Positions 766-15,059 of a DNA stretch of 64,000 bases are shown here, in pieces. The stretch is from Aliikangiella coralliicola. GTDB lineage: Bacteria > Pseudomonadota > Gammaproteobacteria > Enterobacterales > Kangiellaceae. The stretch lies in contig NZ_ML660160.1 in assembly GCF_007004725.1 (NCBI RefSeq), positions 496,001-560,000 on the forward strand, read 5' to 3'. A model generated the notes under the pieces. The model was not told the origin of the DNA, searched no databases, and saw only the letters and a list, made by a program, of their open reading frames with translations. A program made the translations under genes and the position numbers. Position 1 is the first letter of the stretch; the number at the start of each line of letters is the position of its first letter.

Positions 766-1302
766 CTGTGGCCCTTCCATTTGAGCGAGTGTCAATTTTT
801 TGATAAAACATTTTTTCAAGAATCCGTGTTGTATTAATCGCGTCACGAATTTTCTAATTTGTAATTCAGTATTTTTTTAAATCAATTACTCCGGCCCCTT
901 TGAGCGAATTTATTTCTCGAAGACTACCTGCCATTTTTTTGAACAAACTAGAAGACTATTCTGAAAAGAAAGTAGATATATCTCGATACAGAGCAGCTGA
1001 CTAAACCTTAAACAGAGGACCTGTGTTATGTGAGAGTTTGGCCATAAGCTGAGTGTCTGATTTTTTTGTTTATAAACTTTTTGGTTATCGATTTTCGATA
1101 TATTGGCAAACACAAAATTTTCACATTAATCATCCTAAATTAAATGCGCTGGATAATTCATCCACAGCATTTTTAACATAGCGTTATTAAATAGATGACC
1201 TTTATTTAAATGCTGTTGATTGGATTAGTAATCTTATATGACAAAGAAAAAACGATACAAATATTGAAAACGAACAAACTGCATACCAAAAGGGGCTGCT
1301 TT
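766..1302. other. Intergenic region with a relic repeat end
   Basis: No convincing gene is present. A 67-codon minus-strand frame at 910-1113 has no family resemblance and no good ribosome binding site. The only structure I see is at 1040-1077, where GGCCA, then GCTGAGTGTCTG, then a T-run and TTTATAAAC resemble the end of the ~195-bp repeats found downstream of the RHS gene. This is probably a decayed copy of the same repeat end. The RHS promoter should lie between about 1080 and 1290, but I cannot pick it with confidence. Confidence 0.4.
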
Positions 1303-4300
1303 GTGAAAATTAAATACCTGACATCATTAGTTCAGTTAACTGAAAAAAAATTCTCAACGAAATATGATCAAAATTATCTGCGTAAATCGCGAGTATTGTT
1401 GGGCGCCGTGATAATTATTATCTCGTCGACCCTGTCCGTGGTTGCTAACGCGGCTAGCGTGAGTGCCTCTACCAACGTGAGTGCGAATGGTAACTACAGC
1501 ATCAGCTATAGCGCGGCAAGTGTTAGCATGGGTTCCAATACCCTGCAGGAAAAAATTAACAGTGGCGATTGGAATGCCATTGCCAACAATGTGACCAGTG
1601 GTACAAAATCCTATACTGGCAAGCCGCAAGGGACCTACTATTACCGTGTAAAAACATACAAGTGTTCGATTTCCGGAGGGGGAGGAGGTCCCGGTGGAGG
1701 CGGCTACAATTGTACAACGTCTTACTCGAATTCTGCGACCGTTAAAGTCCTCACAAAACCCGGTAATGTTTCGTCAATTAACATTTCAACGACAAGTGCT
1801 GCACAAGGTAAATATAGGATCAGTTGGGGAACTGCTTCAGGCACCGTGAGCAAGTATCGCTTGCAGCGTGAAACCTACGGTGCAGGTAACTGGTCGACAC
1901 TTCAGGAATCCTCGAGTCGTTCTCGTGATGACACCCTGAGTGATGGTCAATATCGCTATCGCGTTTACGCATGCAACAACGCAGGTTGCAGAAGTTCACC
2001 AAAAACAAGTAGTGCAGTAACAGTAAAGCGCACACCGGGAACACCACAGCACATCTCTCGCCTCACCATTAATGCTGACACCGGCACCTACAAAATTACT
2101 TGGAGCGCGGCCTCCGGTACCGTCGAATGGTATGAGCTATTCCGCAAAACAGGCAGTGGAAGTTATGCCTTTGCGCATAAGGTGACCTCTTCTCGATCAA
2201 AACAAGTGTCACCGCCTGATGGCTCCCACACTTATTATGTCCGCGCCTGTAACATCAACGACTGCGGTGGCAAAAAGTACGGCACTGTATTTACCGTATT
2301 GCGTAAGCCCGGCAAGCCGAGTTCTATCCAAACCAGTGCCGTCAATGCGGATGCTGGTGTGTACAAAACTCAATGGGGAAGTGCTAGTGGTAGTGTTTCT
2401 TACTACAAGCTCGAAAGACAAAAAGAAAACAATAGCTGGCAAAATGTTACGCCGATTTCAGGTCAAAGCAATCAAGAAACACTGGGCAATGGCAGCTACC
2501 GCTATCAAGTCAGTGCCTGTAACAACAGAGGATGTAGTCTGGCACAAGTCGGTAGTTACTTTACGGTGATCCATACCCCGGCAGCGCCTGGCAATATTTC
2601 ACTAGCAAGCACCAGCACTACCGGTAACTTCTCACTGTCGTGGCCATCATCAAGTGGCGCCGTAAGTTATGAACTCTACGAAGATTCGCCCACCAGCGAC
2701 TGGACCAAAGTACAAGACGGCACGGGCCGATCCTTTTCAGTCACCGCAGCAACCAACGGCCAATACAGTTATAAAGTGCGTGCCTGTGTGCCTCAAAAAT
2801 GCGGTGCGTTCAGTAATGTCGCAAGTATTAATGTTAACCTGCCTAACCCACGTGCGCCGATATTGGCTGTGCCGGAGAAAAGCCTTAAATCCGAATTCAA
2901 AATATTCTGGAACGATGCGGTCCTGCCATATGCCAATGCCTACGACGGTATTTGGTACAGCGTGTACGAAAAGTACAACGACGGTTCGTGGACGCCTGTT
3001 GGTGATGGCAAAGACTTAAAAACACTCACACTGACGAAAGATTCAATAGGCACTTACAGTTATCGTGTGGACGCGTGCGTGGCAGTTGGTGGTGGACCCG
3101 ATTGTCACAAGGGGGCGATCTCAAGCAGCGTAGAAAGCATCCTTCGAGCGGATCCCCTGGCAAACGTCGATCCCGTCGGTGCAGCAATCAGAACCGCAGA
3201 CACCGTTGGCGCAACCAGCTATAAGTCGTCAACCAATAGCAAAGGCCAGTCGAATATCAGTATTCCGCTGAAACTGCCTAAAGGCGTAAACGGCATCATG
3301 CCGTCTTTATCTTTTCTTTACAGTAGCGGTCGTGATGACAAGCGCGCCCATTTAAAACTACCGAAAGACACCATGGATGGTGGTTTCCGTCTGAGTGGCT
3401 TCTCGCAGATCCACACCTGCAAGATCAAGGAGACCTACATGTGCCTGGACGGTAAACCACTTGCCACAGTGGTGCAAAATCCTCAAGCCATGCGTTTTCG
3501 CCTGCGCGGCGACAGTTTCAGTGCAATCAAGCCACTGGCAAACGGCGGCTACCAATTGACTCAGCCGGACGGTACCGTACTTGAATATGGAACCAGCGAT
3601 GATAGCTACCTGATTACCAAAGACCCAATGGATTTGGATGTTGTTACCTCCCGCATCCGCAAGATCAAACGCAAGACCGATGTCTTTGGCAACCAGGTGG
3701 TTTATCACTACCACAAGAATCAGGAGATCCAAAACAGCTACCCCACTGCGATTGATTACGGCGAAGGGGATAATCTTGTCAGCATCAAAATGAACTACAT
3801 GAGCCGCAGTTACACCGAGTTGGTCAATGACGATCCAACGCACGTGGTTATCCCTGGCGGCCAGGAAGATCCCTTTCTTTCCTATGAAGTGCAAAACACG
3901 CCGCTGCTGAAAGGCGTGGAAATTTGGCGAAATGGAATAAAAATTCGCGAATACCATCTGGCGAGCAAGGAAACTGACACGACTGATGTCTACTGGCTCG
4001 ATCAGCTTCAGGAGTGTGGCTTCGGTGAAAACGGTGGAAATGAAAGCTGTCTGGAACCCTTGAAGTTCAAGTGGGATTTCCGCGACGGTCCGGCCAAGGG
4101 GGCCATTACATCCGTCACTTCCAAATATGGTTTAACAACCGAGTTTGACTACCTGACGATGCAGGAAGGGTCAACTGTCGGTCAGTTTAACGAGCGTCCC
4201 TTTGGTGAATTCAATGCGGCAGGCGTCGGTCATGTGAGTGATCTCACCGCCGAAGAGGAGGACGAAGGGAAACTCAAAACGGTTGTTACTGCAATTCGCA

Positions 4301-7300
4301 AAAGCGATGGACTCGGCGGCTTAAATGAAAAGCAAGTCAGTTATCAGGGGGTTGGTCTGACGACCGAAGCGCACGACTTTGTTGGCTTCGAAGCGATGAA
4401 GATCTACGATGTGGTCAGCAATACGACTCGCTACACCCAGTTCGAAACCGCGGGTACCGCCTTCGGTTTACAAAATCAGGTTAACGCCCGCAGTGAAACC
4501 TACCTTGGCACTAACAACAGTGGTGAGCTGCTTAGCCAGGTATTTAATCGCTACCTTTATTTCTCAATGGATCATGGCGAATATCATCAGGACGGTCACG
4601 GTGAAAAACGCATGCTGACCTACCTTTACCTGAACACGGCACAAACCGTTTACAGTTATCAAGACGGTCAACTGATCAGCGTAAAACAAACGCGCAAAAC
4701 ACCTGAACTGGACACAAACCTTCGCCTGCTGAAAAGCATGACGACAGAAACCGAATGGGCTAGCTCGTCAAATAAAACTAGCGAAGGCAAAGCTGGCGAT
4801 ACCTGGTCTGTCAGTGATCATCTTCTTAGCGGTGTGATACGCAAGCAAAAAGTTAAAAAACAATTTACCAACTACACCAACGACGAATGGATCATTGGCT
4901 TTAATCATCAGACCGACAGCGATTGGTTTGAAGGCTCAAGCACGGTGCCTTATCAAAGCGTCAAGGAAACACAAGAAGCCTATGTGCACAATGGTGCGTA
5001 CACCCATCGAATTGACAACAAAACCAGCTTTAGTGGTGATGCCGACCTCAGCTTAAGCAGCAGTTTTACCTACGACAGTTTGGGCCGACTGCTTACAACA
5101 ACAGCGAGTGGTGTCGAAGTTGCTTCGCGTACCAGCAGCATCGATGCGTTTGAGTTTGGAGGTAACCCTGCACAAACCACCAATGCCCTTTCACAAACGG
5201 CCAGCGCCAAATATGATCTGCGTTTTGATTCGGTTAAAGAAACGACCGACATCAACAACCTTGTTAGCACAATCGGGTTCGATCAGTTTGGTCGTATCAG
5301 CACGCAAACCAATCCGGATAACGTCACTGTTAGTACGACCTACGAAAGTTGCGACGGTGTTTGTTCTCGGGTAAACGGACCGAGTGGTCACGGCGGTGCC
5401 GACGCACTCATCAAAATCACGCGCAGTTCGCCAGTTACCAGTGATGTTGTCAGTTACTTCGATGTTTTCGAGCGCGAAATTCGCAGTGAAACCATCAGCT
5501 TCGATGGCAAAGCTGTTTACCGAGACAGGCTGTATAACAAGCGCGGTCAGTTGGCATACGAAAGCCTGCCGTACTTTAGTGACAGCACACCGAGCTGGAT
5601 CCACTACGAATACGATGCGTATGGGCGCCTGGCGAAAGTGAATCGGCCCGACAACAGCTCCACACAAACGACTTATAGCGTGGTTGGCGGTCTGCCAGCA
5701 ACCACAGTTACCCAGCACGTAACTGATGCAGACAAAGCACACACCGATACCCATCGAAAGCAAACGATCCAGAACCGCACGGGCGAAGTTTACCAAGTGC
5801 ATGATGCTTATGGCAGCAGCGACCAAGTCACTACCGAGTTTGCATACTACCCAACGGGTTTGAGCAAGTGGATCAAAGTAGCAGGCAATGAAGTCGCCAG
5901 CTTTAGCTTCGATGTAGCCGGTAATCGGATCACCTTAGTTGACCAAAACCTCGGAACTGTCACCAGCAAATACAATGGTCTGGGTGAACTGCTCTGGGAA
6001 GAAGATAATGCCGGTCTGCGCGCAGATTACAAATACGATCTGCTTGGCCGACAAACCAGGGAAACCACCCTCGACGGTGTGCAAAACTGGGTATACGACA
6101 CCAGCGCCAACGGCAAGGGCCTGCTCGACTACACTGAGTTTGTTGATAACGACTCACGCTTTTACCACAAGCAGGACTTGAGTTATTACAATGACTCCAA
6201 GCTGAGTGGTACAAAGGTCGATATCAAAGTTCCGGGTTACACCAAAAGCTACACTTCGGGCGTCAGCTATGACAGCTACGGCCGACTCAAAACCACGACT
6301 TATCCTGGCGGTGTCAGCGCCACCAATCATTTCAACTCCCGTGGCTTCCTCGAAAAAGTGTTGGATGAAAACGGTGGTCAGTTGCAAAAAGTCGTCAGTG
6401 TCGATGCTTTCGGCAACATTACCAGTGAAGAATTCGGTCCGAGCATCAGCACCGCTAAAGCCTTCGAACCGCTCACTGGCAGTCTACGAAGCCTGAGTTC
6501 AACACGCGCATCAAACCAGATTCAAAACGAAAGTTACCGTTGGTTAAGCAACGGTATGCTCGAAAAGCGCGAAGACGCCCGTATCAATGTCAGCGAAACT
6601 TTTGACTATGATCCGCTTGGCCGCTTAACCGACAGTTACACCTATCAGAGTTCTGCTTCGTCGCCAAGTCGACAACTCAGTCAGTCATACGATATTTACG
6701 GCAACATCAAGACAAAGACGACGGTAATTGGTGAAGGTGATGACTTAACCGATTATGTCTATGACACCTCAGCGAGCATCAGTGGTAACGGTGGCGCAAA
6801 CGCAGTGAACTCGGTTTACCTGAATGGGGTAAACCGCACTTTAGTTTACAACGCGAATGGTGCAATCAGGCAGTACTTATCCAGCGATGGCGACAACCGT
6901 TATTTAGATTGGACGGCACGTGGCAAACCACATCGTGTATCGCGCGGCCCAAGTGAATCTAACTTTAATGCGCGCGACGAATTTGCCTATGGAATTGACG
7001 GTGCGCGTTACTACCGCAAAGCTCAGTGGAAGGATACAAACGGTCAGCTCAAAAACGAGCATACTTTTTATGTCGGCGCGTACGAAGAAGTTCTAACCGA
7101 AGCGGATAATGAATACAGCGCTTTATATAAAACCCAACTTGGCAACGCAATAAAGATTAAAGGTGTTAAACATGATGGCTACACTATCACCAATAACACA
7201 GAATATTTATTGCGTGATCATTTGGGTTCTGTTGCTGCCATTGTTGATCAAAATGGCGACATTATGCGCCTTGCCTATGAACCTTTTGGTAATCGCCGAA

Positions 7301-8322
7301 AAGATAATTGGTTGGGCAAATTTAATAGCGACGAGTTAGGCACGTTAAACAACAATTTGCGGCGTAAAGTCTCACGTGGTTACACCGGTCATGAACATCT
7401 CGACCGTACTGGCTTGATTCATATGAATGGGCGAGTGTATGACCCGACGCTGGGCCGCTTTTTAAGTCCTGACCCGATTGTTCAGGCACCGCATTTCTCG
7501 CAGAGTTATAATCGGTATAGTTATGTGTTTAATAATCCGATGCGGTTTGTTGATCCGAGCGGGTACAAAACTACCATTCGTGGATCAGATTCTGGCGGCA
7601 GTGTTTGCTTTTGTTCGACGACTTTCTATGGTGGATCACGCAAGGCAATAGCGAGCGCCGCTGCGGCAGTACTACCTCCGGATGCGGATTACCTTGCGCC
7701 TGTAATTGCCGACTATGCAACTACTGGAGGATTTAGCACGACTTTTCATTTTAATAACGAGTCAGTTACAACCTATCATCGAATGTCAAATAGAACCAAA
7801 AACTATGGCTCCGAAATAGCTGATATTAGAGAAGGGTTTGGAGGAGGAATTAGTCAGAGGGAAGGATTCAGCAACGCACAAAAAGACTCGATAGGGGCAT
7901 TGATTCAAAACATGGGACAATCTAGTGGTCTACTCGATAGCAATTTTGAGATAGAACTGTACCAAAAATGGTGGTATGGAGATGGTAGCAATTACGAGCT
8001 AGAGAAGATTACATTTAATGAAATTCTGTCTGTCGGAATAATTAAATATAAAGAAGCCAAAAGCGTGCCGCTAAGCGATGGTACACAAGGTTTTTCTGCG
8101 CCGATAGATACATATGGCAGCCCCAAATATAATTATGGAATAGGAGAAGCAACTGTCTATCTAAACGCAAACATGAAACCTGTTGGGTTCATTGACTTTT
8201 ACAATTTTGATCAAGGAAACAGAGCGTTCATCGCCGAGAGAGTAACGCGAAGCGTGGGAGAGTTCGGGAAAATTTACAATGCTAATGACTATTACATTTA
8301 TTACGGAGTTCTTGGTCCATAA
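1303..8322 (+). CDS. Secreted RHS/YD-repeat protein with FN3-like repeats and variable C-terminal toxin-like tip
   Basis: About 2339 aa. I chose the GTG at 1303 because AAAAGGGG lies just upstream and the protein then begins with a charged stretch and a hydrophobic segment ending in VVANA, a plausible signal peptide (residues ~1-50). An upstream ATG at 1210 is in frame but has no ribosome site. Residues ~50-615 hold six ~90-aa fibronectin-III-like repeats (for example GKYRISWGTASGTVSKYRL). An SpvB-like region follows (GQSNISIPLKLPKGVNGIMP), then many YD repeats, then the canonical RHS core end (YDPTLGRFLSPDP, NPMRFVDPSGY) near residue 2087. The last ~250 residues form a variable tip that I do not recognise. 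By analogy with RHS polymorphic toxins the tip is the effector, but that is inference. No same-strand immunity gene follows; a 195-bp repeat starts 49 bp downstream. The tip and downstream DNA are more AT-rich than the core. Confidence 0.88.
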   Translation: MKIKYLTSLVQLTEKKFSTKYDQNYLRKSRVLLGAVIIIISSTLSVVANAASVSASTNVSANGNYSISYSAASVSMGSNTLQEKINSGDWNAIANNVTSGTKSYTGKPQGTYYYRVKTYKCSISGGGGGPGGGGYNCTTSYSNSATVKVLTKPGNVSSINISTTSAAQGKYRISWGTASGTVSKYRLQRETYGAGNWSTLQESSSRSRDDTLSDGQYRYRVYACNNAGCRSSPKTSSAVTVKRTPGTPQHISRLTINADTGTYKITWSAASGTVEWYELFRKTGSGSYAFAHKVTSSRSKQVSPPDGSHTYYVRACNINDCGGKKYGTVFTVLRKPGKPSSIQTSAVNADAGVYKTQWGSASGSVSYYKLERQKENNSWQNVTPISGQSNQETLGNGSYRYQVSACNNRGCSLAQVGSYFTVIHTPAAPGNISLASTSTTGNFSLSWPSSSGAVSYELYEDSPTSDWTKVQDGTGRSFSVTAATNGQYSYKVRACVPQKCGAFSNVASINVNLPNPRAPILAVPEKSLKSEFKIFWNDAVLPYANAYDGIWYSVYEKYNDGSWTPVGDGKDLKTLTLTKDSIGTYSYRVDACVAVGGGPDCHKGAISSSVESILRADPLANVDPVGAAIRTADTVGATSYKSSTNSKGQSNISIPLKLPKGVNGIMPSLSFLYSSGRDDKRAHLKLPKDTMDGGFRLSGFSQIHTCKIKETYMCLDGKPLATVVQNPQAMRFRLRGDSFSAIKPLANGGYQLTQPDGTVLEYGTSDDSYLITKDPMDLDVVTSRIRKIKRKTDVFGNQVVYHYHKNQEIQNSYPTAIDYGEGDNLVSIKMNYMSRSYTELVNDDPTHVVIPGGQEDPFLSYEVQNTPLLKGVEIWRNGIKIREYHLASKETDTTDVYWLDQLQECGFGENGGNESCLEPLKFKWDFRDGPAKGAITSVTSKYGLTTEFDYLTMQEGSTVGQFNERPFGEFNAAGVGHVSDLTAEEEDEGKLKTVVTAIRKSDGLGGLNEKQVSYQGVGLTTEAHDFVGFEAMKIYDVVSNTTRYTQFETAGTAFGLQNQVNARSETYLGTNNSGELLSQVFNRYLYFSMDHGEYHQDGHGEKRMLTYLYLNTAQTVYSYQDGQLISVKQTRKTPELDTNLRLLKSMTTETEWASSSNKTSEGKAGDTWSVSDHLLSGVIRKQKVKKQFTNYTNDEWIIGFNHQTDSDWFEGSSTVPYQSVKETQEAYVHNGAYTHRIDNKTSFSGDADLSLSSSFTYDSLGRLLTTTASGVEVASRTSSIDAFEFGGNPAQTTNALSQTASAKYDLRFDSVKETTDINNLVSTIGFDQFGRISTQTNPDNVTVSTTYESCDGVCSRVNGPSGHGGADALIKITRSSPVTSDVVSYFDVFEREIRSETISFDGKAVYRDRLYNKRGQLAYESLPYFSDSTPSWIHYEYDAYGRLAKVNRPDNSSTQTTYSVVGGLPATTVTQHVTDADKAHTDTHRKQTIQNRTGEVYQVHDAYGSSDQVTTEFAYYPTGLSKWIKVAGNEVASFSFDVAGNRITLVDQNLGTVTSKYNGLGELLWEEDNAGLRADYKYDLLGRQTRETTLDGVQNWVYDTSANGKGLLDYTEFVDNDSRFYHKQDLSYYNDSKLSGTKVDIKVPGYTKSYTSGVSYDSYGRLKTTTYPGGVSATNHFNSRGFLEKVLDENGGQLQKVVSVDAFGNITSEEFGPSISTAKAFEPLTGSLRSLSSTRASNQIQNESYRWLSNGMLEKREDARINVSETFDYDPLGRLTDSYTYQSSASSPSRQLSQSYDIYGNIKTKTTVIGEGDDLTDYVYDTSASISGNGGANAVNSVYLNGVNRTLVYNANGAIRQYLSSDGDNRYLDWTARGKPHRVSRGPSESNFNARDEFAYGIDGARYYRKAQWKDTNGQLKNEHTFYVGAYEEVLTEADNEYSALYKTQLGNAIKIKGVKHDGYTITNNTEYLLRDHLGSVAAIVDQNGDIMRLAYEPFGNRRKDNWLGKFNSDELGTLNNNLRRKVSRGYTGHEHLDRTGLIHMNGRVYDPTLGRFLSPDPIVQAPHFSQSYNRYSYVFNNPMRFVDPSGYKTTIRGSDSGGSVCFCSTTFYGGSRKAIASAAAAVLPPDADYLAPVIADYATTGGFSTTFHFNNESVTTYHRMSNRTKNYGSEIADIREGFGGGISQREGFSNAQKDSIGALIQNMGQSSGLLDSNFEIELYQKWWYGDGSNYELEKITFNEILSVGIIKYKEAKSVPLSDGTQGFSAPIDTYGSPKYNYGIGEATVYLNANMKPVGFIDFYNFDQGNRAFIAERVTRSVGEFGKIYNANDYYIYYGVLGP

Positions 8323-8371: not shown

Positions 8372-8566
8372 AACCATAAACGGACACTCAACTAATAAAC
8401 AATCTCTCACAGATTTTGTGGGAGATTGTCACAATCATCAATCAGTTGAAAAATGCGTTGTTAAAGTTTAGTTGGTTTATAAGCTGCTAAAGCTGAAATG
8501 TCTGTCAGCGAAAATTGATTTTGGCTGTAAGCGATTTGCGGCCAGTTGAGTGTCTGGCATTTACTA
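8372..8566 (+). repeat. 195-bp direct repeat, copy 1, with 11-bp terminal inverted repeats
   Basis: Nearly identical to 9737-9930 in the same orientation. Near its ends are GACACTCAACT (8383-8393) and AGTTGAGTGTC (8544-8554), a perfect 11-bp inverted repeat. Inside, CAATCTCTCACA and TGTGGGAGATTG form a hairpin. It encodes nothing obvious. It could be a MITE-like element or the boundary of a movable segment. It lies directly after the RHS stop codon. Confidence 0.85.
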
Positions 8567-8607: not shown

Positions 8608-8660
8608 GACTAACGTCCAAAGCAGCGGTGCGAAGCATCCACTACCTTCTCTTGTTAAGT
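8608..8660 (-). other. attC-like site downstream of the 210-aa cassette gene
   Basis: On the minus strand it runs from ACTTAAC (overlapping the TAA stop of the preceding gene) to GTTAGTC. It folds in attC style: TTAAC pairs with GTTAG, then unpaired spacers (AAGAG and GGAC), then AAGGTAGTGG pairs with CCGCTGCTTT using G-U wobbles, with one bulged A, capped by TGC-TTC-GCA. The length of 53 bp is slightly short for the class. The last box deviates by one base from GTTRRRY. Confidence 0.5.
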
Positions 8661-9287
8661 ACCCTCATCCTCTACATTTGGTGCCAAACGAAATAGCTTT
8701 AATTTATCTTCGACGCCCACAGTTGTAGAGTATTCTTTAAGATACAAGTATACGTCTTGATTTTGTTTGTAATTGCTAGCATATGACCACTCAATACATC
8801 TGTGGCAAGTGTTCTCATTTTTCAGGTAATTTTCGAGAAACCGCTTAAGGGCACCGGTGTTTCCAGTTGCCGAAAACCATGCCCATGTTGCGTCAACTTC
8901 ATAGGGGTGGGTTATGTCAGTTTTCAATACCTTAGACAGTTTTTCCAATGCATCTCTTTCTGTGTAGTGCGGATCCTTACAAGCAAAAAGATAATGAGTC
9001 ATTTTTTCATTAACGGCTTTAGCTCTAGTCTCTCCTATTTCATTGTAAAATCTCTTGCAATCAAAAAATTCCTCTCGCTCAACTGGTGCTAAGCTAAGTA
9101 TTACCTCGCCCACAAACTTTGTTTTATTCCCTTCGAGCACATCCATATTAACGACTTCGATCAAAAAATCAGTTAGCTTGGAGTCATCAAGTTTATAAAC
9201 ACTTTGGGCATGCCTTAGTAAGCTCTCCTCGGCAGTGCTAGCTGCCGAGAATAGGGTTATGAGAACTATCGACAGGAATTTAATCAT
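8655..9287 (-). CDS. Hypothetical secreted/periplasmic protein (210 aa), putative cassette gene
   Basis: I do not recognise the family. The protein begins MIKFLSIVLITLFSAASTAEE, a short signal peptide with a probable cleavage after STA, so it should be periplasmic or secreted. The body is soluble and rich in charged residues, with a CxxC (TCHRC) near residue 162 and further Cys at about 78 and 103. The start is supported by AAGGAG six bases upstream of the ATG. The TAA stop lies inside an attC-like site and the gene starts 17 bases after another, so I read it as a gene cassette. It could be a periplasmic immunity protein for an RHS-type effector, but nothing in the sequence proves that. Confidence 0.7.
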   Translation of the reverse strand: MIKFLSIVLITLFSAASTAEESLLRHAQSVYKLDDSKLTDFLIEVVNMDVLEGNKTKFVGEVILSLAPVEREEFFDCKRFYNEIGETRAKAVNEKMTHYLFACKDPHYTERDALEKLSKVLKTDITHPYEVDATWAWFSATGNTGALKRFLENYLKNENTCHRCIEWSYASNYKQNQDVYLYLKEYSTTVGVEDKLKLFRLAPNVEDEGT

Positions 9288-9304
9288 ACTTGCTCCTTAC
9301 TAGT

Positions 9305-9370
9305 GCTTAACGCTTATTTAAATTGTGAGGCGTATTTGTTCATCGAATCCATTTCTAATTCTTGTTATAA
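9305..9370 (-). other. attC-like site between the two cassette genes
   Basis: The minus strand runs from TTATAAC (containing the TAA stop of the 85-aa gene) to GCGTTAAGC, whose GTTAAGC matches the GTTRRRY core exactly. Boxes TAAC and GTTA pair across 5-nt spacers; inside, TTA(GA)AAT can pair with ATTTAA with two bulged bases. Length 66 bp, typical for attC. The upstream box departs from RYYYAAC outside the AAC. Confidence 0.55.
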
Positions 9371-9622
9371 CTCTACAGTTTCAATATCAATTTGCCAAGT
9401 CGAACCATCTGATTTTTCCTTGAAGTCACTCACATCGAAATACTCTAAAGATTCTATAGTCCAATTTCCGGTATTAGTAATTTCTTCTCTTAACTTGAAA
9501 AGTGCCACTTCTCTTGCCTTGACGTCTGCATCTCTCAAAGATCTCAACTCCTCCAATGAAGGGGAGATTCCTGATGGCTTCAATATAATTCTAAACTCTG
9601 TTTCAGGATGAGTAATTGACAC
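9365..9622 (-). CDS. Small hypothetical protein (85 aa), putative cassette gene
   Basis: Unrecognised small soluble protein with no signal peptide or membrane segment. The GTG start at 9622 is supported by an AGGAAAG motif about six bases upstream. The sequence is acidic with a central helical stretch (SLEELRSLRDADVKAREVAL) and a beta-like end (GSTWQIDIETVEL), compatible with a small alpha/beta fold. It is preceded and followed by attC-like sites and its stop overlaps the second, matching the layout of integron cassette genes. Most cassette genes are of unknown function. An antitoxin or immunity role is possible but unproven. Confidence 0.6.
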   Translation of the reverse strand: MSITHPETEFRIILKPSGISPSLEELRSLRDADVKAREVALFKLREEITNTGNWTIESLEYFDVSDFKEKSDGSTWQIDIETVEL

Positions 9623-9652
9623 AAATACTTTCCTATTTCTTACTTATTATTG

Positions 9653-9711
9653 CTATAACGCAAAGCTAATTTTTTGTGTAGTTTACGCTAAATTTCAGCG
9701 TATTGTTACGT
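9653..9711 (-). other. attC-like site upstream of the 85-aa cassette gene
   Basis: The minus strand runs from ACGTAAC to GTTATAG. TAAC and GTTA pair, separated by 5-nt spacers (AATAC and TTTGC) from an inner stem GCT(GA)AATT / AATTAGC with two bulged bases. This is the box-spacer-box layout of attC. Length 59 bp. It lies 25 bp from the second 195-bp direct repeat. Confidence 0.5.
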
Positions 9712-9736: not shown

Positions 9737-9930
9737 AACCATAAACGGACACTCAACTAGTAGACAATCTCTCACAGATTTTATGGGAGATTGTTTTAAT
9801 CTCCAATCAGTTAAAAATGCGTTGTCAAAATTTAGCTAATTTACAAGCTCCTAAAGCTGAAATGTCTGTCAGCGAAAGTTGATTTCGGCTGTAAGCGATT
9901 TGCGGCCAGTTGAGTGTCTGGTATTTACTA
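9737..9930 (+). repeat. ~194-bp direct repeat, copy 2
   Basis: Same orientation and almost the same sequence as 8372-8566, including GACACTCAACT near the left end and AGTTGAGTGTC near the right end, the CAATCTCTCACA hairpin and the ATTTACTA end. The two copies enclose the putative cassette pair, so homologous recombination between them would delete or exchange it. Confidence 0.85.
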
Positions 9931-9967: not shown

Positions 9968-10768
9968 TTATTTTGCATCAGCGACCCAATATGCAATGAG
10001 TTCAGGGCGATAATCTTTCCACGTAAAAACAATAGACTCCTTATCAAATAATTGAATAAGTTCTTTTGCTCCCTTTATAGTCAATAGAACTTTGTCTTTT
10101 GATGAACCAGATTGTGTAATCGCAAATTTACGCTTTGGTTGCTTTTCTCGTATCTGCTTTTTTAGCGCCTTTATACATCCATCAATTTTGCCTTTATTAT
10201 GCTTGTGGCTTTTACAATTGGCATAAACTCGAAACTCCCCGTCGAACTCAGCCCATTTCACTGGTGAAACTAGAGCGATTTCAGAATTTGTTTTCTGTTT
10301 ATTCATGAAGATTCTTGCCTCCTCTAGAGACTCAAACTTATGTTCTTTGCGTATCACTTTTCGCATGAGTTGTTTACTTTTAAGTAATTGACTTTTATCA
10401 AATGAAAAACTCTTTCCGTCAATAACTGCATATCCACAACCGTCTTCAAAATTCAGCCCGATTTCGTCTACCTTGACCCCATCTTTCAAAATATTTAGAT
10501 AGTAATTGTAACCACAGGCTGAAAGAGGCTTATCATCGCCTAGCTGCCAATCCCTCTTTATTGATTTAAGAGATTCGACGTTCTCGATAAAAAACTCTTT
10601 CATCTCGGCATGGAATTCATGCCTTTGCCCATGGGTTCCAACAACAGAGTAGCCTCCCTCTTTAAAAGCATACTTTTGAAATATACTTTTATCGGTCTTG
10701 TTGGCCGCTATTGAACAACTTGAAAGAATCAAAGTTGTCGCGAGGATAATTTTAATCAATAGCTTCAT
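9968..10768 (-). CDS. Hypothetical lipoprotein (266 aa)
   Basis: Unrecognised. The N-terminus MKLLIKIILATTLILSSC is a classic lipoprotein signal with the modified Cys at residue 18, so the protein is membrane-anchored and faces the periplasm. The ATG is supported by AGGAAA six bases upstream. The mature part is Lys-rich. It contains a Cys-bearing segment (SACGYNYYLNILKDGVKVDE) and a Cys pair near residues 191-203 (YANCKSHKHNKGKIDGC). It lies on the same strand as the two cassette genes, beyond the 195-bp repeat, but no attC-like site was found at its 3' end. It may be part of the same accessory cargo. Confidence 0.7.
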   Translation of the reverse strand: MKLLIKIILATTLILSSCSIAANKTDKSIFQKYAFKEGGYSVVGTHGQRHEFHAEMKEFFIENVESLKSIKRDWQLGDDKPLSACGYNYYLNILKDGVKVDEIGLNFEDGCGYAVIDGKSFSFDKSQLLKSKQLMRKVIRKEHKFESLEEARIFMNKQKTNSEIALVSPVKWAEFDGEFRVYANCKSHKHNKGKIDGCIKALKKQIREKQPKRKFAITQSGSSKDKVLLTIKGAKELIQLFDKESIVFTWKDYRPELIAYWVADAK

Positions 10769-11364: not shown

Positions 11365-11573
11365 TGGAACCTCCTCCATTTTTACCATGATTAATTTTGT
11401 TGATAAAAAAACAACTAAAAAATAATACAAAATTTAAATGACAAAGTTTTTCCTGTCGAAAATTAGACGTGCACATTTTCACCACTGGACGGGAACCATT
11501 AACTAATATACGCTAATAAAGTGATAATTGCAGGCAGATCATTGATTTGCTCACCTTTTCGGGAGGGATTCCT
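11365..11573. promoter_or_regulatory. Divergent promoter region of the 154-aa gene and the TIR-STAND gene
   Basis: A very AT-rich 209-bp spacer between two divergent genes must carry both promoters. AT-rich stretches at 11385-11440 and 11505-11525 are candidate -10 areas. I cannot assign exact boxes. The TIR-STAND ribosome site is GGGAGGGA at 11561-11568. Confidence 0.45.
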
Positions 11574-14500
11574 ATGCAAAGCTATGACGTTTTTATCTCT
11601 TATGCCAGAACATCTTCATTTGATGAAGCACATCAGTTCGCAGCATTGTTAACAGACAATGGTATTTCTCACTTTATTGATGACAGGTCAATTCCTTTAG
11701 GAAGTCGTTTCCCACAAGATATTGCAAAAAGTCTGCTTAACTCCAGGGTGATGGTTGTATTTGTGGACTCCGTTTATTTCGAGCGTTATTGGTGCGTTTG
11801 CGAATATCAGTTAGGCATTGCTTTGTACCGAAAGAACATCTCTAACGGCAAGGTTGAATCACCGCTTGAGCATATGCTTATTGCACTACCTGAAAATACT
11901 GAGTTAGATATGGTAAAAGCTCACCTACCACCGTTATTGTCCAATACCTCCTGGCCTGCTTCTGACAATAGCGCCGATCTGGTTGAGCTGGTGATACGGA
12001 AGTTGGAGAAAGATCCGGATGTTATTGGCAATCAATTGGATGAGTTTGATGACAATGCCGTAAAAATGTTACTCGATGGCGGTTCTATTCCAGTTCCCGC
12101 AGTGATTAAAAATATTCCTAATTTTCTGAAAAATATTCCCGATGGACTGGGTAATGAGTTCATAGGCCGGCAGGATATTCTTTGGAGAATATTTCATTCA
12201 CTGGAAACGAATGGTGTTGCTGGTAACGCTACAACTTGTGTACTGCGAGGGCTAGGTGGAACAGGGAAAACACAAATTGCAGCAGAGTATGTTTGGCGTT
12301 ACGGAGCACGTTATTACCCTGGCGGTATCATCTGGTTAAATGCCGACTGTGATGAAGAAGAGTTATTTGAACAGCTCTATGATATCGCGCTGAAATTTCT
12401 TCCGAATATTGAGCCTGTCGACCGGTTTCATTTTGATGTCGAGGCTATATCATCGAGGTTAGTTGATTACTTTAGCGAAAGAGAAAATGATAAAGCGGTA
12501 TTGTGGGTGGTGGATAATCTACCTGAACCGAAAAAAGGCCAACGTATTCAACCGCTAAAGTATTGGTGCCCGGTTGAGCAATATGTGCGTGTACTGGGTA
12601 CGACACGGCGCTCAAAAATTAAAGTGGGTACATTAATTCGCGTATCAGAGTTTTCGCCGGAAATTGCCATTGAAATGATTACTCGAAATGAAGTGAAGAA
12701 AGACTGGTTAAGCAATGACGAGTGGAAAGAAATTGTTAACTGGGTTGGGTGTTTGCCTTTGGCCTTAAAGTTATTACAAACGCTTCTTAGTGAGAAGTTT
12801 ATTGCTGTGAAGTCATTGCTAAGCAAAGCGAGAGAGGAAGAGCCTGCTGATTACTTAAAAGACGAAATTGATTCTTTACAAGAAGAAGTTGAAGAAAACT
12901 ACTTAAGGGGAGTTACTGAGACGTTTCACTTATCCTACGCACTGTTGCAGAATGACCATGAGATGCAAAGCGCGTTACAATTCTTCGCGTTTCTATCATT
13001 TGTCGCGGTGCCTCAACCACTGTTAACTTTAACGATATCCGAAAGGACATTAGGGAAGTTAGCAAATCGCAGTTGGATTCAATCCTCTGAGTCAACCAAT
13101 GATAAAGATAGCGGAAACAACATAGTCAGGCTCTGGCAAATGCATCGACTTGTTTCCAGCTATGTGCGTTCTCAAACTCGCCAGCCGGTCATTTTAGTTG
13201 CTATGGTCGCAGAATGGCTGACGAAGGTTTTTGAAAGTGATCTTCATTGGCATTTGCTTAAACGGTGTAACCCTCATTTATTTCGATTGCGCAATAATGC
13301 ACATCATTTTCTCATCGAAAATAATCCAGAGACTTTCGAGGTTGTGAGTAAAGTTAACTTTTGTGGACAAACTGTCGCTTTAACTCGACTGGACGATGAG
13401 CGTTTAGATGGTGCTCGCTATCTTGGTGCATGTCTGGTTTATTGGAGTAATGATGTTGATACTTTTCTCGAACGACTGGAAAACAAAATTGCTGAAGATG
13501 ATATAAAGGTATTATCCAACCTACCGCATCTTCTGCAGGTTTTCAGAAATTCTCAACGAGCTGCAAATCTATTTGTTCAATTATTAAATCATTCTGATTT
13601 AGAGGTGTGTAGAAAGGCAATGGTGTACGTGGGAAATTGTCAAACTCCTGAAATTGTTGCAATCCCTTTTTTAGAAGTTTTAATTAACCCTAAGCACGAA
13701 AATATTCTCGATAATGTTATCAATAGCTTTGAAAATTTATTTACGGCTAATTCACCAAGTCTCGATATTATTTTACCAAAATTAATCGATTTAGCGAAAG
13801 ATGGTGAGTATCAGGGAATGGTAAGTGCAAGGCTTTTGTCCCGTTTGTTTGCGCATTTGGGCGAGGAGTTGGTGACTGCAAATTTTAGTGGTATTCGACT
13901 TGCGAACGAACTAATCGAAATTGTAAAAACTACCAACGACGAGAAAATTGCTTTACAACTTGCAGATGGGTTAGGGCGGGTAGATAGCGATGAAATCTAT
14001 ACTCAAGTGATTGGCTTGCTTTCGGCTGAGGACAGGCAGGAAATTCAATTGCAGCGTATTAAAGCGGTTAATCAATATTTGCATATCAGAACTTATCCAC
14101 CGACGCCAAAAATTAAAGTTGAATATAAAGAGGACGGCGGCGTGGCTTTGCATGCTGGAGAAGGTGGTTTTTTTCCAACAAAAAAAGCGCGCCCTGAACT
14201 TAATCGACCCTTAGGAGATTTTGTATTGAAGTTGGTTCATCCCGATATTTTTGAACAGGCTATTGAAATTATTTGTCAAAGCAGCGTCGGGCAATTCGGT
14301 CTGGTACAAGCGGTTTATGATGTGATTGATGCGGGAGAATATCAACGAGTTATCGCCGTAGCTAGCAAAGCCATGGAGTATTCACCGGACTTTCCAAGTC
14401 CCTACATGTGGCGAAGCGAATGTTATGAAGCATTAGGGCAATTTGAAAAAGCGTTGAGTGATCAATCGATGTTGATTAATATGACGACGAATTTACCTGA

Positions 14501-15059
14501 GCAATACCGGGCTGAATACATTGCAAGAAGAGGGTTTATTCAAGAACAGTTAAACAATATTCCTGGTGCCATTGAGGATTATTCGAGTGCCATTGAACTT
14601 GATTCTGAAAATAGTCAACACTACCAATATCGTGGTTACCTGTATAAGTTGGCTAATGATGTTGAAAAAGCGTTCGAGGATTTTACACAGGCAGTTAAAC
14701 TTAACCCTGAAGAGACTTATTCACTATATGAAAAAGCAATGTATCAGGGAGGACGCGGTGAATATGCCCTTGCTCTCATTGACTTAAAGAAGCTGTTGGC
14801 GATAGATAAGAACCACCATGCTGCCTGGTATTTGCAAGGCCTTTGCAACTTAAACCTCCAACTTTACCCTCCGGCTATTGAATCGCTGAGTAACGCAATT
14901 TTACTGGAGCAGAATGTTGGCGAATATTATTATATTCGAGGATTAGCACGGTTTTATTGTGATTTAAAAGATGATGCACGGCGTGATGTTGAGCTGTGTC
15001 TTCAACTGAATCCCGATCATGGTAAATGTCAAGAACTGCAAAACTTGTTGGAAGAGTAG
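11574..15059 (+). CDS. TIR-NB-ARC (STAND NTPase)-TPR protein, probable anti-phage immune sensor
   Basis: 1161 aa from the ATG at 11574 (GGGAGGGA upstream; an in-frame TTG at 11547 is less likely). Residues ~2-140 are a TIR domain (YDVFISYAR, IPLGSRF) with a WCVCEYQL motif whose Glu is a candidate NADase catalytic residue. Residues ~200-520 are an NB-ARC/STAND ATPase with Walker A GLGGTGKT (~226-233), a Walker B-like hydrophobic strand (AVLWVVDN) and GCLPLAL. Residues ~600-830 look like HEAT-type helical repeats and ~920-1158 are TPRs (for example AIEDYSSAIELDSENSQHYQYRGYL). This is the layout of NLR-like prokaryotic immune proteins: repeats sense an invader, the ATPase oligomerises, and TIR depletes NAD or makes a signal. 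Function here is inferred from domains. It is the core of a probable defence island with the divergent 154-aa gene. Confidence 0.88.
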   Translation: MQSYDVFISYARTSSFDEAHQFAALLTDNGISHFIDDRSIPLGSRFPQDIAKSLLNSRVMVVFVDSVYFERYWCVCEYQLGIALYRKNISNGKVESPLEHMLIALPENTELDMVKAHLPPLLSNTSWPASDNSADLVELVIRKLEKDPDVIGNQLDEFDDNAVKMLLDGGSIPVPAVIKNIPNFLKNIPDGLGNEFIGRQDILWRIFHSLETNGVAGNATTCVLRGLGGTGKTQIAAEYVWRYGARYYPGGIIWLNADCDEEELFEQLYDIALKFLPNIEPVDRFHFDVEAISSRLVDYFSERENDKAVLWVVDNLPEPKKGQRIQPLKYWCPVEQYVRVLGTTRRSKIKVGTLIRVSEFSPEIAIEMITRNEVKKDWLSNDEWKEIVNWVGCLPLALKLLQTLLSEKFIAVKSLLSKAREEEPADYLKDEIDSLQEEVEENYLRGVTETFHLSYALLQNDHEMQSALQFFAFLSFVAVPQPLLTLTISERTLGKLANRSWIQSSESTNDKDSGNNIVRLWQMHRLVSSYVRSQTRQPVILVAMVAEWLTKVFESDLHWHLLKRCNPHLFRLRNNAHHFLIENNPETFEVVSKVNFCGQTVALTRLDDERLDGARYLGACLVYWSNDVDTFLERLENKIAEDDIKVLSNLPHLLQVFRNSQRAANLFVQLLNHSDLEVCRKAMVYVGNCQTPEIVAIPFLEVLINPKHENILDNVINSFENLFTANSPSLDIILPKLIDLAKDGEYQGMVSARLLSRLFAHLGEELVTANFSGIRLANELIEIVKTTNDEKIALQLADGLGRVDSDEIYTQVIGLLSAEDRQEIQLQRIKAVNQYLHIRTYPPTPKIKVEYKEDGGVALHAGEGGFFPTKKARPELNRPLGDFVLKLVHPDIFEQAIEIICQSSVGQFGLVQAVYDVIDAGEYQRVIAVASKAMEYSPDFPSPYMWRSECYEALGQFEKALSDQSMLINMTTNLPEQYRAEYIARRGFIQEQLNNIPGAIEDYSSAIELDSENSQHYQYRGYLYKLANDVEKAFEDFTQAVKLNPEETYSLYEKAMYQGGRGEYALALIDLKKLLAIDKNHHAAWYLQGLCNLNLQLYPPAIESLSNAILLEQNVGEYYYIRGLARFYCDLKDDARRDVELCLQLNPDHGKCQELQNLLEE

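Follow-up and report, generated by a model that had tools for sequence, protein, structure and literature searches.

Integron integrases (IntI) move gene cassettes by recombining the folded strand of an attC site at the G/TT point. Two related situations have been described: Loot et al. (2024) are said to have observed cassette insertion at attG sites, and Gillings (2009) reportedly described MITE-flanked class 1 integrons of Acinetobacter. Clusters of attC sites lacking an integron integrase have been named CALINs (PMC9024848; PMC8618304), and 2961 of them were counted in the IntegronFinder 2.0 survey (PMC9024848). PMC8618304 gives off-target insertion, loss of intI and rearrangement as routes to a CALIN. 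attG sites are described in PMC12901181, and in the Acinetobacter case identical 439-bp MITEs with 5-bp target repeats surround an integron with intI1 (PMC3934969). Our literature search found no publication joining Aliikangiella with an integron.

Here, we analyzed a 64-kb window (the whole stretch of Aliikangiella coralliicola DNA under study, on contig C1), which very probably contains a short CALIN. It would consist of two complete cassettes, one with an 85-aa gene and attC site 2 and the other with a 210-aa gene and attC site 1, together with what is left of a third, its attC tail, all in one orientation and drawn from the cassette pool of an array on contig C3. The attC sites, a C3 copy of one cassette bounded as cassettes are, the lack of an integrase and the presence of an attI-like segment on C3 together place this CALIN apart from a larger former integron. 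Since CALINs have already been named and counted (PMC9024848), the locus falls in a known class.

As in other CALINs, at least two close attC sites are present (three, by our own covariance models rather than those of IntegronFinder), the cassette genes share one orientation and no intI lies nearby; a complete integron, with intI and attI beside the array, was not found here. The three routes listed in PMC8618304 cover this case. Unlike described CALINs, sites 2 and 3 are AT-rich (GC 0.30-0.33) and the cluster is bracketed by MITE-like repeats. Insertion at an attG site would explain cassettes far from the main array. Compared with the Acinetobacter integrons (PMC3934969), two direct copies of one short element again bracket cassettes, whereas the window copies are 194/195 bp long and 90% identical, with no target repeat seen and no integrase.

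attC sites and covariance models

The three sites lie on the minus strand at 8608-8660 (site 1, 53 bp), 9305-9370 (site 2, 66 bp) and 9653-9711 (site 3, 59 bp), exactly where the first-pass annotation had placed them, and all carry TAACAA...CGTTA in a common orientation. Site 1 ends the 210-aa cassette and includes the stop codon of its gene (TAA, 8655-8657); site 2 ends the 85-aa cassette and also includes the stop codon (TAA, 9365-9367); site 3 is the tail of a cassette without its gene. The ATG of the 210-aa gene (9287) is found 17 bases after site 2 and the GTG of the 85-aa gene (9622) 30 bases after site 3, in agreement with the layout of stops and starts noted earlier.

Covariance model R2 was made from 11 of 21 attC sites of relatives; 10 of the 11 belong to other genera, and the remaining site is that of a genome in the same genus. 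Its training sites were picked by eye, two of them reversed, and none came from the A. coralliicola genome itself; eight long-looped sites of loci L054 and L059 and two doubtful sites were left out. When R2 was run on the window with no filters, sites 1, 2 and 3 took ranks 1, 2 and 3 (E 0.003, 0.031 and 0.056), followed by a match at E 0.43. With a model made from other genomes, the top three of the window are thus exactly the three annotated sites. Genome-wide, with the best 150 of 868 candidates scored, R2 gave three places, including site 2 (E 3.38) and without sites 1 and 3. In 96 kb of C3 and other stretches of this genome, 13 matches were obtained at E ≤1, 10 of them hand-picked C3 sites; at this threshold the model recovers 10 of 24 C3 sites and misses 14. 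The best match in these stretches was a near copy of the R2 training site L044:18386.

Model R1 was made from 24 of 25 attC sites picked by eye in the C3 array of this genome (one misaligned at its 3' end). Over the 7.04-Mb genome, it gave 15 matches at E ≤10 among the best 150 of 2182 candidates. Fourteen of these were in the C3 training array and the only one outside was window site 2, the third best match genome-wide at 51.1 bits; weaker sites would be missed by this search, because 150 of the 2182 candidates were scored. In the window alone, R1 ranked site 2 first (E 1.1e-6), site 1 second (E 0.6) and site 3 fourth (E 1.1), sites 1 and 3 being weak on their own under this model. The window sites, weak as attC sites and in two cases AT-rich, offer test material for detection models and recombination assays.

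Several other searches addressed the sites. A home-made box-and-stem score gave its highest minus-strand value to site 1 (30.0; best plus-strand match, 27.8), and was dropped in favour of the covariance models, as sites 2 and 3 fell outside its top eight. Part of an array attC (C3:224492-224529) shares 87% identity with site 3 over 38 bp. When the genome was searched with a hand-made 60-base pattern for the site-2 family (≤3 mismatches), window site 2 alone matched; the pattern misses the C3 relatives because its length is fixed. An Rfam search of the 64-kb window gave zero matches. Around the locus, promoter-like sites numbered 7 (6.7 expected) and no terminator-like site was found.

Pairing was assessed in the site-2 family, which comprises seven sequences, the window included. 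In 93% of cells, the R and L boxes retain an attC-like pairing, as opposed to ≤49% in slid versions of the structure, a comparison in which the counted structure is favoured because we drew it from those seven sequences. Three pairs are changed on both sides. Shuffles reached as high in 1 of 500 cases for cells paired and in 19 of 500 for pairs changed on both sides, and RNAalifold found no consensus structure for the family.

Cassette genes, the C3 array and the integrase

The 85-aa gene (9365..9622, minus strand, GTG start) has relatives in the C3 array (85% protein identity) and in a same-genus genome, G296 (61%). At the DNA level, positions 9308-9669 of the window and C3:212750-213109 share 87% identity over 362 bp. 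In a sliding comparison, identity stays high between the GTTA boxes of sites 3 and 2 and is at background level on either side, which defines a cassette unit common to both places (9308..9660, minus strand). Similarity bounded by a GTTA box at both ends is a cassette's signature. Together with the R2 ranks, this homology bears out the integron-cassette interpretation of the first-pass annotation. A unit with its boundaries at the G/TT point in the R' box of attC was found for the 85-aa cassette, one of the two; for the 210-aa cassette, 394 genomes of the order provided no relative but its own for such a comparison. The GTG start of the window copy is replaced by GCG in the C3 copy, and the latter may therefore be decayed or start elsewhere.

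Occurrence of both cassette proteins is limited. The 85-aa protein matched in 2 of 40 family genomes, its own included, with zero relatives in genome_contigs and zero in plasmids. The 210-aa protein (8655..9287, minus strand), which has a signal-peptide-like N-terminus by eye and no family, matched in 1 of 394 order genomes, its own, with zero relatives in plasmids and zero in viral contigs. Neither had an informative match in Pfam, NCBIfam, PHROGs or PADLOC; a match of the 85-aa protein to NCBIfam FliL was at chance level (E 0.076, 12.8 bits, cut-off 197). Structure prediction with AlphaFold2 gave poor models of both (85-aa protein, mean pLDDT 51.3; 210-aa protein, 43.8). Because of these poor models and the lack of an informative family match, we claim no function beyond that of accessory genes, and accessory proteins are what the two most likely encode.

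In G296, the relative of the 85-aa gene starts just after GTTA and is followed by three sites found with R1 (E 0.41, 0.0022 and 2.2). This region (L068:770-2330, on G296:C72) is a second short cassette cluster, at a different chromosomal place, and carries relatives of two C3 cassettes, those of the 85-aa protein and of a 137-aa protein.

Further attC sites elsewhere in the genome, as anticipated in the first-pass annotation, were found in the C3 array, which was located through a run of minus-strand matches to the TAACAA..CGTTA pattern. It spans about 22 kb (C3 ~205-227 kb) and holds some 36 small minus-strand ORFs, chosen by us from ORF lists. Many of these are separated by attC-like gaps, and a single plus-strand ORF (152 aa) stands apart. 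This array is a former integron, and its cassette pool is most likely the same as that of the window pair. A 175-bp attI-like segment lies at C3 ~221,790-221,964 on the minus strand (in L062); its identity to the region upstream of intI is 88% in genome G255, 85% in G296, 80% in G173 and 76% in G215. Similarity to these relatives ends at CAGCTGTTA, which we read as the expected attI crossover. Beside the segment, an integrase gene is absent, and a MITE-like AGACAGTCTGT motif is found there, followed by further cassettes; cassettes in the same orientation occur on both sides of the segment. Its best match in the window was 18 bp long (E 0.70). These observations add a marine genus in which a large cassette array lacks an integrase, an attI-like segment is an orphan and some cassettes have strayed.

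Two other features of the array were observed. The C3 stretch (C3 203-222 kb) has 10 occurrences of the motif AGACAGTCTGTTAAA (≤2 mismatches). In addition, C3:205288-205343 and L044:18386-18441 (genome G184, another genus of the family) are very similar attC sites, a sign of shared cassettes.

The integrase was assessed with the IntI family TIGR02249 (cut-off, 265 bits). The absence of an integrase from the window, noted at the outset, extends to the genome, in which none of the 22 contigs carries a gene above the cut-off; because the assembly is in 22 contigs, an integrase may be hidden in a gap. Five weaker matches were obtained, none on C1: four fall within two tyrosine recombinases of ordinary appearance, and the fifth is a divergent paralog on contig C2. 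Weak matches of this kind also occurred in 14 of 14 control genomes. Among related genomes, where the presence of an integrase had been in question, 131 of 295 in the order and 3 of 7 in the genus (G255, G298 and G296) exceeded the cut-off. Within the genus, intI is intact in G255 (its protein is a 100% match to Aliikangiella sp. G2MR2-5), has 8 stops in G298 and is partial in G296 and G264, and the best matches of this genome (G000), G295 and G297 score 80.7-96.5 bits against the cut-off of 265. Integron decay can thus be traced over seven genomes of one genus.

The C2 paralog is a 333-aa IntI-derived protein (G000:C2 ~630350-631351; L002:1012-2013, minus strand; also L154 and L158). Its N-terminal half aligns with IntI, and the C-terminal RHSFATHLL...Tyr region is missing. 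Relatives with 41-42% identity over ~280 residues are present in G295 and G296, each of which retains one of the neighbour genes of the paralog, and matches of like span, unaligned, suggest that it also occurs in G298 and G255. By its sequence, the protein may be a vertically kept integrase paralog that looks catalytically dead. It also contains the one occurrence of AGACAGTCTGTTAAA (C2:630785) in the other stretches of this genome that were examined. Judged by titles and the beginnings of abstracts, our literature search gave no report of a catalytically inactive integron integrase paralog.

Origin of the cluster

Under the CALIN interpretation, a former IntI most likely inserted the cassettes at a secondary site, away from attI. 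Recombination between the MITE-like repeats would perhaps then have trimmed the block and left site 3 without its gene. Since the genome has no gene above the IntI cut-off, the IntI step would lie in the past. Could the sites instead be a chance occurrence, weak palindromes between two ordinary small genes? Two results are of the kind that chance would give. Folding, which had been suggested for the minus-strand sites, did not set them apart: on neither strand were single-stranded-DNA minimum free energies of sites 1-3 better than those of shuffled sequences (z -0.82 to 0.90). The bare TAACAA..CGTTA pattern is also at background genome-wide, with 201 matches as compared with 461 for a reversed control pattern. 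However, none of 400 simulated first-order Markov windows had at least three TAACAA..CGTTA sites (46-76 bp, a pattern written after the sites had been seen) in 1.2 kb of one strand. The top three ranks under R2, the position of site 2 as the only R1 match outside C3 among the best 150 of 2182 candidates, and the pairing in its family argue in the same direction, and the cassette-bounded homology to C3 contradicts chance for site 2. We therefore regard chance as scarcely credible.

The pair is also bracketed by two direct repeats, which were overlooked in the first-pass annotation: a 194/195-bp left copy (8372..8566, plus strand) with inverted ends GGACACTCAACT..AGTTGAGTGTCT, MITE-like in character, and a right copy in direct orientation (9737..9930, plus strand), 90% identical to it. 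Thus two short elements with inverted ends lie around the unit, and the cassettes might have been brought in as a composite unit bounded by them, with no IntI action at this place. Elements with similar ends within the C3 array (e.g., C3:213974-214038) are consistent with this scenario, as are the Acinetobacter precedents (PMC3934969). On the other hand, no target-site duplication was seen by eye at the outer repeat ends, ~10 bp just outside either inverted end are shared by both copies, the sequence difference between them is 10% and no second copy of the unit was found, which makes such an origin rather unlikely. A broader version is a longer shot: the integron of this genus would have become integrase-less while its cassettes stayed in play, with MITE-like elements, one of which also lies at the spot of the missing intI beside the attI-like segment on C3, now moving and trimming the cassette blocks in its stead, so that the dead integron would go on seeding the chromosome. 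Compared with both, it is much less probable that the two cassette genes confer immunity to the adjacent RHS effector and are kept as cassettes for that reason. The RHS gene (1210..8322, plus strand) encodes a 2370-aa protein with TIGR03696 at residues 2023-2118 and Pfam RHS_repeat, lies outside the array and is convergent with the cassettes, and this position is the one link found. Against it, the cassette genes are on the opposite strand, informative family matches are lacking, and relatives, which exist for the 85-aa protein alone, lie in other cassette clusters (C3 and G296). The earlier proposal that the array stores immunity modules or is a partner of the RHS gene is thus unsupported, and the RHS neighbour is probably incidental to the cassettes. 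We found no literature joining attC sites, Rhs, integrons and immunity.

Other neighbouring genes

Upstream of the cluster, beyond the right repeat, is a gene for a 266-aa protein with no assigned family (9968..10768, minus strand). It matched in 1 of 40 family genomes, its own, and had zero relatives in viral contigs and zero in plasmids. This could be the gene that the right repeat separated from site 3. Near the locus, the window also encodes a TIR-domain protein (11547-15059) that also has TPR repeats and a weak match to AAA, and for which PADLOC gave PDC-S66 (E 1.6e-12) and ThsB (E 6e-7); a role in defence is possible for this gene.
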